Source: Candidatus Aenigmatarchaeota archaeon | GTDB taxonomy: Archaea; Aenigmatarchaeota; Aenigmatarchaeia; CG10238-14 | NCBI GenBank assembly: GCA_026397455.1 | Contig: JAPLUX010000023.1 | Span: 1 to 11,390 of the forward strand | Reading direction: 5' to 3' | DNA: 11,390 nucleotides | In this document: in pieces, positions 3,112-4,927 of the stretch | Numbering within the stretch: the first letter of the stretch is position 1 | Layout: each line of letters starts with the position of its first letter | The notes under the pieces: generated by a model | The model's input: only the letters and a program-made list of their open reading frames with translations | What the model was told of the DNA's origin: nothing | The model's database searches: none | Translations under genes and position numbers: made by a program

Positions 3112-4041
3112 ATGCCAGATAAAATTCCAAAGAAATTTCTGAATATGTACTACAAACAAGGTTACAGAATAGTAGGAAAACATCAACATTCTGCGGTTAA
3201 AATCTGTAGATGGACTAAAGAAAGTTTAAGACATGATAGAGTTTGTTTCAAACAGAAATGGTATGGAATTGAAAGTCATAGATGTTTGCAATGTACGGTC
3301 AGCCTGTCATGCTTGAACAGATGCGTTTATTGTTGGAGGACTTTTCATCCAATCTTTGAAAAGGAGATGAGTAAAAAAGCGATAGATGAACCATCTGAAA
3401 TAATCGATGAACTGATAAAAGCACAAAGATTACTGTTGACTGGATTTAAAGGGAATGAGAAAGCTGATAAGAAAAAATGGGGAGAAGCACAGAACCCGAC
3501 TAATGCTGCTTTGAGTTTAATCGGTGACAGCATATTGTATCCAAGATTTTCTGAACTTCTAGAAGAATTTCACAAGAGAAAGTTTTCAACATTTTTAGTG
3601 ACTAAAGGTACGTCTCCAGAGAAGTTGAAAATTTTAGAAGTTGAACCGACAAACCTTTACATTTCTCTTTGCGCACCAGATGAAGAAACTTACATGAAAA
3701 TTGATAATCCAATCGTGAAAGATGGCTGGAAAAGGATGAATGAAAGTTTAGAGTTGATGAAAAGTTTTGGTTGTAGAAAGATTTTGAGGTTGACGTTAGT
3801 TAAAGGATTGAACATGAAAAATCCTGAGAAATATGCTAAGTTAATTTTAAAAACAAATTGTGATTTCGTTGAGACCAAGGGTTTTATGTGGGTTGGGGAA
3901 TCACAAAAAAGGTTGCCAATGAATTCGATGCCTTATCATGAAGAAATTATGGAATTTGCTAAAAAGTTGTCTGAATTTACTGGTTATGAAATTAAGGATG
4001 AATTCAAACCCAGTAGAGTTGTTTTACTTACAAAGAAATAG
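3112..4041 (+). CDS. taw1: 4-demethylwyosine synthase (radical SAM, Taw1/TYW1)
   Basis: 309 residues. It makes the tricyclic base of wyosine at position 37 of tRNA-Phe by condensing pyruvate carbons with N1-methylguanosine in a radical SAM reaction. The radical SAM cluster motif CxxxCxxC is C67-C71-C74 (SCLNRCVYCWR). Three earlier cysteines, C32, C45 and C58, are spaced 13 and 13, which matches as I recall the second iron-sulfur cluster of archaeal TYW1, so both clusters look intact. Further marks are ALSLIGDS (SAM-contact region, about 137-144), FLVTKGT and LYISLCAPDEE. It lacks the flavodoxin domain of eukaryotic TYW1, as expected for archaea. It probably starts leaderless and its 3' end overlaps trm56 on the other strand by 14 bases. 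No other wyosine genes are in the window. Confidence 0.93.
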   Translation: MPDKIPKKFLNMYYKQGYRIVGKHQHSAVKICRWTKESLRHDRVCFKQKWYGIESHRCLQCTVSLSCLNRCVYCWRTFHPIFEKEMSKKAIDEPSEIIDELIKAQRLLLTGFKGNEKADKKKWGEAQNPTNAALSLIGDSILYPRFSELLEEFHKRKFSTFLVTKGTSPEKLKILEVEPTNLYISLCAPDEETYMKIDNPIVKDGWKRMNESLELMKSFGCRKILRLTLVKGLNMKNPEKYAKLILKTNCDFVETKGFMWVGESQKRLPMNSMPYHEEIMEFAKKLSEFTGYEIKDEFKPSRVVLLTKK

Positions 4042-4546
4042 TCTTCTTTCCATGTTCTTGAGGTGTTATTTTTATTTTTTTATTCTCAAAATCTTTTTTC
4101 AATTGTTTTCCATCAAAAAATCTGTCTAAAAAAACAGCCAGAGCAGCAACTTCAGAATGTGGCTGGTTTGAAACAGCAACGTTCCAATCAGATAAATGAT
4201 AGACTTCTCCAGGCACGTGTTGAGAGCCGATTATTACCAACAAATCCTTTTTACTGTTTTTTATTTCATTCATGACATCTTGTATTGACAAACCGTACAT
4301 AGTCAAGTGCACAATCTTTCCTTTCCAATTTTTTATAACTTTTTTCCAATTCTTTTCATAGTTAATCTCGAAAGGTCCTCCCCAATTTTCAACAACTTTT
4401 TTTATGCTTTTCTCCAAGTTCTCGTCTCTATCTCCAGAATAAGTCATGCCGTTAGCTCCGAATGTCCTCGCGACTAGAGCACAGTGTGAACTTATCCTCT
4501 GGTCCCTTACTCTTCTATGTCCTAATCTCAGAACCCAAATTCTCAT
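4028..4546 (-). CDS. trm56: tRNA (cytidine(56)-2'-O)-methyltransferase Trm56
   Basis: 172 residues, a SPOUT-class methylase that 2'-O-methylates C56 in the T loop of archaeal tRNAs using SAM. The family marks are the N-terminal VLRLGHRRVRDQRISSH (5-21), HLTMYG (80-85), the knot segment IIGSQHVPGEVY (105-116) and the very typical C-terminal motif NQPHSEVAALAVFLDR (127-142). Length is normal. The start at 4546 fits the family N-terminus and has no ribosome site; a TATA-like ATTTAAAA lies about 27 bases upstream, so it should be leaderless. It is divergent from aIF1A and convergent with taw1, with a 14-base overlap at the 3' ends. All key regions are present and the call is secure. Confidence 0.95.
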   Translation of the reverse strand: MRIWVLRLGHRRVRDQRISSHCALVARTFGANGMTYSGDRDENLEKSIKKVVENWGGPFEINYEKNWKKVIKNWKGKIVHLTMYGLSIQDVMNEIKNSKKDLLVIIGSQHVPGEVYHLSDWNVAVSNQPHSEVAALAVFLDRFFDGKQLKKDFENKKIKITPQEHGKKTISL

Positions 4547-4569
4547 AATATTAAGACGTTTAAATTAAC

Positions 4570-4577
4570 TTTTAAAT
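4570..4577. promoter_or_regulatory. Palindromic TATA-like box between trm56 and aIF1A, possibly serving both
   Basis: TTTTAAAT is near-palindromic and reads as a TATA-like box on both strands. It is centred about 27 bases from the trm56 ATG on the minus strand and about 26 bases before the AGGTG ribosome site of aIF1A on the plus strand. One TBP site could therefore feed both divergent transcripts. A second box, TTTAAA at 4559-4564, is too close to the trm56 start to serve it. Confidence 0.45.
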
Positions 4578-4599
4578 CTTCAACTATCGCTGTATTATT

Positions 4600-4604
4600 A
4601 GGTG
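4600..4604 (+). promoter_or_regulatory. Ribosome binding site supporting a CTG start of aIF1A
   Basis: AGGTG is a perfect match to the archaeal anti-Shine-Dalgarno core and sits five bases before the in-frame CTG 4610. No ATG, GTG or TTG occurs in this frame between the divergent promoter and codon 25. Confidence 0.55.
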
Positions 4605-4609
4605 TTTAT

Positions 4610-4927
4610 CTGAAAAACAGACAACCATTAACAGAAGAGGAAGAAATATCCAGGATCAGAATTCCTAAACAAGGTGAAATCTTGGCTTTCGTAGAATTAA
4701 TGCTCGGTTCGGATAAAATGCGTGTTCGATGTGAAGATGGTAAAGAGAGAATAGCTAGAATCCCAGGAAAATTGAGAAAAAGAGTCTGGATAAAAGTTGG
4801 TGATGTCATTCTGTTACAACCATGGAAGGTCATGACTGACAGAAGAGGGGATGTCATCTGGAGATACACAAGGACACAGGTAAACTGGTTACAAAAGAAA
4901 GGTTATTTGAAGAATCTTTCCTTTTAA
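4610..4927 (+). CDS. Translation initiation factor aIF1A, apparent CTG start
   Basis: 105 residues if started at CTG 4610. aIF1A is the OB-fold factor (bacterial IF1-like) that binds the A site of the small subunit and helps place the initiator tRNA. Family marks are EEEEISRIRIPKQGEIL (10-26, acidic tail and first strand), DKMRVRCEDGKERIARIPGK (35-54), RKRVWIKVGDVILLQPW (56-72) and GDIIW-like RGDVIWRYT. Length is normal for the family. The only nearby canonical start, TTG 4682 behind AAGGTGA, would remove the first OB strand and the conserved GEIL segment, so I reject it as the main start. ATA 4646 behind GAGG is a weaker alternative. The stop is followed within eight bases by a recurring motif and the first of three small zinc genes. 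RIO1 and the Dim2-like protein downstream act on the same ribosomal subunit. Confidence 0.92.
   Translation: MKNRQPLTEEEEISRIRIPKQGEILAFVELMLGSDKMRVRCEDGKERIARIPGKLRKRVWIKVGDVILLQPWKVMTDRRGDVIWRYTRTQVNWLQKKGYLKNLSF

Follow-up and report, generated by a model that had tools for sequence, protein, structure and literature searches.

The closest described system is bacterial infC, the gene for IF3, which starts at AUU or AUC and is under autocontrol; like the archaeal gene considered here, it encodes a factor for start selection, uses a codon outside AUG, GUG and UUG, and is often misannotated (PMC5472188). The codons reported there to be repressed by IF3 do not include UUG and GUG. The same article describes Streptomyces sigR, with a GTC start repressed by IF3, as a case in which a non-canonical start acts as dosage control and was missed by annotation. 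In eukaryotes, eIF1 is described as a start-fidelity factor under negative feedback through a weak start (PMC6237735), and a counterpart at archaeal aIF1A is conceivable. That article also reports that aIF1 destabilises the complex on non-AUG mRNA, that aIF1A adds to the loosening of the complex by aIF1 and, together with it, makes the complex more dynamic (an effect of aIF1A seen only in toeprints), and that the initiator tRNA was stabilised when aIF1A was present and aIF1 was not. CUG starts are rare: for bacteria and archaea, Belinky et al. (PMC5622118) give switches to CUG for 2 of 61,358 ancestral AUG starts and 1 of 2,468 UUG starts, so that CUG is, for the numbers given there, more often reached from UUG, the route proposed below for aIF1A. 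In the open-access literature searched, no report of non-AUG aIF1A starts or of aIF1A autocontrol was found.

The aIF1A gene and its start region

The stretch of DNA analysed, referred to here as the window, has 11,390 nucleotides (G000:C49) and belongs to a draft genome, G000, of 942,536 bases in 191 contigs that is 72% complete. The named relatives of this genome are mostly Candidatus Aenigmatarchaeota. The gene of interest matches PF01176 at 71 bits (cut-off 30.2) over codons 22-85 and profile positions 1-64, is the sole match found by a profile search of G000, and has 74% identity to the aIF1A of the relative G004. The features referred to in the text are as follows.

4610..4927, + strand: aIF1A coding sequence from CTG to stop, 105 aa, assigned by its PF01176 match, identity to G004 and solved structures
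4610..4612, + strand: proposed start codon CTG, in the same place behind GGTG as the TTG or ATG of relatives
4600..4604, + strand: Shine-Dalgarno (SD) sequence AGGTG, 5 nt 5' of the CTG, assigned from the 16S 3' end of relatives and its common register
4571..4576, + strand: TATA-like TTTAAA, 27 nt 5' of GGTG, with which the leader would be about 10 nt long
4559..4564, + strand: possible TATA-like TTTAAA, 39 nt 5' of GGTG, assigned from motif and spacing
4682..4684, + strand: rival start TTG, codon 25, the first canonical start in the frame, behind GGTG at 4673-4676 and then 5 nt
4700..4702, + strand: ATG, codon 31, a nearly invariant Met, at the equivalent of which the public models P0095 and P0099 begin
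4028..4546, - strand: divergent Trm56, a control gene with an ATG start, which is also ATG in all 8 family relatives where it was found

The aIF1A frame has an in-frame stop at codon -29 and is then open for 28 codons 5' of CTG 4610 and on to the stop at 4925-4927. It holds no ATG, GTG or TTG before TTG 4682, as an earlier sequence-only reading of this DNA had said, with the right coordinates; ATG 4700 follows. That reading also held that a start at 4610 gives the normal family length and an acidic N-terminus, and this agrees with the 105-aa product, whose N-terminus is acidic as in the family. With this start the protein includes the N-terminal part that stands ahead of the OB fold in solved archaeal aIF1A, the structures 1jt8, 5jb3 and 4mno aligning from query residues 10, 6 and 6, respectively.

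The 16S gene of G000 was searched for in the draft genome and not found, and the anti-SD was taken from the 16S of relatives. In seven of their loci the 16S 3' end reads GGATCACCTCCTTT, in most with a further T or A after it. The AGGTG that the sequence-only reading had seen five bases before the CTG does lie there, and it stands in a common register: picked starts in related genomes often carry an SD equivalent to GGTG+5 (tgat+3, aggtga+4, gtgat+3, ggtg+5, aggtg+5, gaggtg+5), with a match of at least 4 absent from 112 of 255 of them. When 4547-4681 was shuffled 5000 times with dinucleotides preserved, an in-frame CTG with such an SD arose in 0.08% of shuffles, and an SD before any of ten AUG-like codons, including ATG, GTG and TTG, in 6.2%. 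Given these frequencies the SD alone is modest evidence, and it is the comparative data that carry the case. Taken together, they make CTG 4610 very probably the translation start.

The usual archaeal distance from TATA element to start is the basis on which transcription starts are placed here. TATA-like elements are found 25-35 nt 5' of GGTG in the seven relatives compared (G006 left out), with additional ones at 44 nt in G010 and at 18 nt in G004, and the elements at 25-35 nt imply that the leaders are probably short. The GTG within the SD opens a tiny GTG-x-x-TGA/TAG frame over the start (4602-4613 in the window), which is seen also in G002, G006, G007, G008 and G009; this frame probably results incidentally from the GGTG+5 spacing with NTGA or ATAG after it.

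Start codons of aIF1A in related genomes

The family set consists of G000 and 11 further genomes, and aIF1A was matched in nine of the twelve (G001, G003 and G011 had no match). The codon behind GGTG is CTG in the window, TTG in three genomes, ATG in one, GTG or CTG in one, and possibly ATA in three. The spacing is 5 nt for the TTG of G005, G007 and G009 and for the ATG of G002. G004 has GGTG, 6 nt and CTG, the alternative being the in-frame GTG of the SD itself, which places CTG at aIF1A in the window and possibly in G004. G006 and G008 have ATA at 5 nt, which in G006 is followed directly by GTG, and G010 has TTG-GTG at the SD and ATA 6 nt behind. These last three belong to one genus, and in their loci (L005, L044 and L067) the ATA 5-6 nt behind GGTG precedes the aIF1A N-terminus, making ATA starts possible there. 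G008 also has an in-frame ATG 5' of the SD, which, judging from usual archaeal spacing, may coincide with the transcription start or lie 5' of it.

The comparison shows a putative non-AUG aIF1A start to be usual in the window's Aenigmatarchaeota family, where CTG fits as an extreme member. The suggested comparison of CTG plus AGGTG across relatives came out divided: GGTG with a non-AUG codon recurs, and CTG itself does not, the codon being mostly TTG. An ATG at the same place, which had been named as a sign of sequencing error in the window, is present in only one of eight relatives (G002), with the G008 ATG further upstream in addition. The CTG looks like one step in a lineage-wide avoidance of AUG at aIF1A, probably taken from TTG.

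Beyond the family, Aenigmatarchaeota loci have 29 ATG and 2 TTG starts among 31, and in a second set 30 ATG and 3 TTG among 33; these loci were assigned by record title or by exclusion, with an automatic rule that favours ATG. Under the automatic rule, loci titled Bathyarchaeota have 13 GTG, 8 TTG and 2 ATG (23 loci). A wider sample around a Bathyarchaeota genome, in which 72 of 81 genomes had a match and 30 loci were shown, has 20 ATG, 8 TTG and 2 GTG. For Asgard archaea (76 of 79 genomes with a match, 30 loci shown) the figures are 9 ATG, 13 TTG and 8 GTG. In the wider Bathyarchaeota sample the automatic picks fell in the wrong place in L222, L226 and L239, which are ATG whichever position is taken, and in L241, for which homology points to GTG; L246 is ambiguous. 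Two loci outside Aenigmatarchaeota have CTG at the homologous aIF1A codon when read by eye. In L085, near 492, from an uncultured archaeon with a similar N-terminus, an in-frame TAG lies directly 5' of the CTG and there is no canonical start within 15 codons; in L094, near 1892, the rule had chosen an upstream TTG. A scan of viral contigs for relatives found none.

Start codons of other genes and the level of aIF1A

In the relatives, manual reading gives ATG for Trm56 in 8/8, Pno1 in 6/6, rSAM in 3/3, RIO1 in 5/6, the 1721 ORF in 5/6, Alba in 1/2, TopoVI-B in 3/6 and TopoVI-A in 3/5. For these eight neighbours together ATG accounts for 34 of 42 starts, whereas aIF1A has it in 1 of 8. Fisher's test gives p 0.0004, and 0.004 when the upstream ATG of G008 is counted for aIF1A; both values are optimistic because the genomes are related. 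Leaving out TopoVI raises the neighbours to 28/31 (p 6e-5 versus aIF1A), and the TopoVI genes alone, with 6/11, are not clearly different from aIF1A (p 0.15). In the window itself TopoVI-B (6837) and TopoVI-A (8392) begin with ATG. Two partial recombinase-like ORF matches, aligned from residues 200 and 145, were excluded from the counts, and ORFs 2245 and 10471 had no matches in family relatives. The aIF1 gene begins with ATG in 8 and TTG in 3 of 11 family relatives (manual reading); that of G000 was searched for in the draft genome and not found.

A stop-to-stop homology screen of related genomes, with shadows removed, gave 265 ORFs, of which 199 start with ATG, 35 with TTG, 21 with GTG and 10 with none of these, a rough background only, as aIF1A rows and some shadow ORFs are still included. 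Among 46 orthologue pairs of G005 and G007 the automatic rule gave non-ATG in both genomes for four, and aIF1A and an ORF with the motif HELVPKH have SD matches in both. This ORF, which we take to be rpoH-like, has TTG behind AGGTG in both genomes.

What a weak start at aIF1A would do is best considered against these controls. CTG 4610 would be positioned by the AGGTG SD and decoded as Met by the initiator tRNA, as homology, SD and relatives suggest, and a weak start would be expected to lower aIF1A output. Its most likely function would then be to hold aIF1A production down and couple it to how strictly start codons are chosen. As a whole explanation, a CTG start together with family-wide non-AUG usage and low, strictness-tied synthesis of aIF1A is given a probability of roughly two in three. 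In this explanation the recurrent weak start is, from the genomes compared, well supported. The feedback itself would go one step further, in that more aIF1 and aIF1A on the 30S subunit would make a mismatched start less productive and less aIF1A would be made; even granting the correct start, this part we infer with somewhat less than even confidence.

The strongest alternative, which comes close to even odds, is that the non-AUG start just sets a fixed stoichiometry of aIF1A with no feedback, and that CTG arose from TTG by a T-to-C change. Most relatives have TTG or GTG, 5 of the 11 copies of the nearby TopoVI-A and TopoVI-B in relatives begin with TTG or GTG, and the aIF1A start type drifts, being ATG in G002 and in 20 of 30 loci of the wider Bathyarchaeota sample. 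It is consistent with this that aIF6 starts with TTG in 19 of 22 Bathyarchaeia and Asgard loci (L198-L219), with 2 ATG and 1 ambiguous. On the other side, the family is nearly without ATG at aIF1A while Trm56 and Pno1 keep ATG, which points beyond drift, but no further than static tuning. A static lowering of expression would explain the data about as well as autoregulation.

The aIF6 starts have a wider bearing. To our knowledge aIF6, an anti-association factor, does not choose start codons, and its TTG habit suggests that in Bathyarchaeia and Asgard archaea aIF1A is not the only translation-factor gene with a weak start, and that such a start need not be a sign of feedback. Many of these TTG codons stand behind GGAGACT-like leaders. 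In the family genomes G000-G011, aIF6 (PF01912) was found in 0/12 by a search that gave matches in four archaeal controls. The idea of a pan-archaeal non-AUG trait specific to aIF1A was dropped, as 20 of 30 loci in the wider sample are ATG and aIF6 also uses TTG.

Position of the start within the frame

It is improbable that translation begins elsewhere, at TTG 4682, at ATA 4646, or at GTG 4602 with a change of frame. TTG 4682 is canonical, has the GGTG+5 register and pairs better with the anti-SD (-8.5 kcal/mol, against -6.3 for CTG 4610 and -5.9 for ATA 4646, which lies inside the conserved N-terminus); moreover, G004 has an in-frame GTG within AGGTG, 6 nt ahead of the CTG. Against such starts stands the region that they would leave out. 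In an alignment of 13 sequences there is no variation at E10, E12, I13 and P19 and almost none at E11, R15 and G22. Differences between G000 and G004 fall 4/1/8 on first, second and third positions in codons 7-24, a small sample of 18 codons, and 12/10/37 in codons 25-104; third positions change most in both parts, so codons 7-24 look translated. The conservation of residues 5' of 4682 points to a start of translation ahead of that codon. Starting at 4682 would also trim PF01176 by three positions and lose the stretch aligned with solved aIF1A. Codon 25 is TTG in three of the nine family genomes (G000, G004 and G007, manual reading), and the SD-like bases before it encode a conserved G-E. GTG 4602 reads GTG TTT ATC TGA in the window.

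The AAGGTGA with GGTG+5 before TTG (4671-4684) is a second good in-frame initiation site inside aIF1A, from which a shorter 81-aa product without the N-terminal tail could be made.

Public protein models

Among the 55 JGI-sourced models within the best 120 of 259 aIF1A homologues, the first residue is L in 26, V in 12 and M in 17. The same count for Pno1 (54 JGI-sourced models within the best 120 of 161) gives M throughout, and for Trm56 (66 within the best 120 of 7915) 61 M, 3 L and 2 V. Of the 55 aIF1A models, fifteen have their first residue within the conserved part (L or V in 8, M in 7), and P0004 and P0011 begin far upstream; the other 38 have 21 L, 8 V and 9 M, that is, 29 of 38 non-M. 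P0004 and P0011 extend some 30 codons further 5', across the divergent promoter region, as far as an ATG or GTG, and are probably over-extended calls of the same gene.

The first residue printed in JGI entries appears to be the coded one. In six pairs the two sequences differ at that residue alone, the JGI entry having L or V and its partner M (P0016/17, P0031/32, P0052/53, P0028/30, P0037/40 and P0081/83), and among the aIF1A entries listed no L- or V-first one has a non-JGI source. Reading L as TTG assumes callers that allow just ATG, GTG and TTG. On this reading P0007 (JGI, L), which begins LKNREPLTEEEE, has TTG at the residue homologous to CTG 4610.

The models P0099 and P0095, each of 75 aa, are 96-97% identical to the window aIF1A over those 75 aa. 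The sequence-only reading expected a gene caller to choose TTG 4682; in public data both are instead called from the equivalent of ATG 4700. P0095 has no stated source, may cluster with the window's own protein, and was not counted as independent. An assembly or base-call error that made CTG from ATG or TTG is improbable: the CTG is a single base in one MAG and P0007 has TTG at the homologous codon, but two other models look as if codon 1 were non-canonical there too. P0099, which comes from a JGI contig and is distinct (75 aa with 3 differences), has codon 31 as its called start, and P0002 (91%) has a TTG at codon 7. The argument is indirect, since callers differ, P0008 and P0010 being alike except at the start residue.

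Discussion

Even without feedback, CTG starts, and possibly ATA starts, would mean that some public models of aIF1A, a universal translation factor, are too short in these archaea. The recurrent avoidance of AUG at aIF1A also supplies genes on which start-codon discrimination in archaea could readily be tested. If the feedback were true, all three domains would have come separately to one kind of control, in which a factor for start selection finds a poor start on its own mRNA. The full form of this idea is that aIF1A limits itself through a non-AUG start, evolved in archaea independently of infC and eIF1, with the codon in one Aenigmatarchaeota family moving through UUG, GUG, CUG and perhaps AUA and being hardly ever AUG; we regard it as rather unlikely.

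The locus differs from each of the known systems. From ordinary archaeal UUG and GUG starts it differs in its codon, CUG not being named among those. In sigR the regulated gene encodes a sigma factor, not an initiation factor itself. The weakness in eIF1 lies in the context of an AUG and not in the codon, and the factor is eIF1, not eIF1A. The parallel with infC, drawn already by the sequence-only reading, is fair as a pattern and weaker in its particulars, since most relatives use UUG or GUG, which are not IF3-repressed codons, and aIF6 shares the UUG habit. IF3 and aIF1A are unrelated proteins. Compared with infC, the aIF1A codon varies (CTG, TTG, GTG, ATG, perhaps ATA), and at aIF1A the feedback would be a proposed property of the gene.
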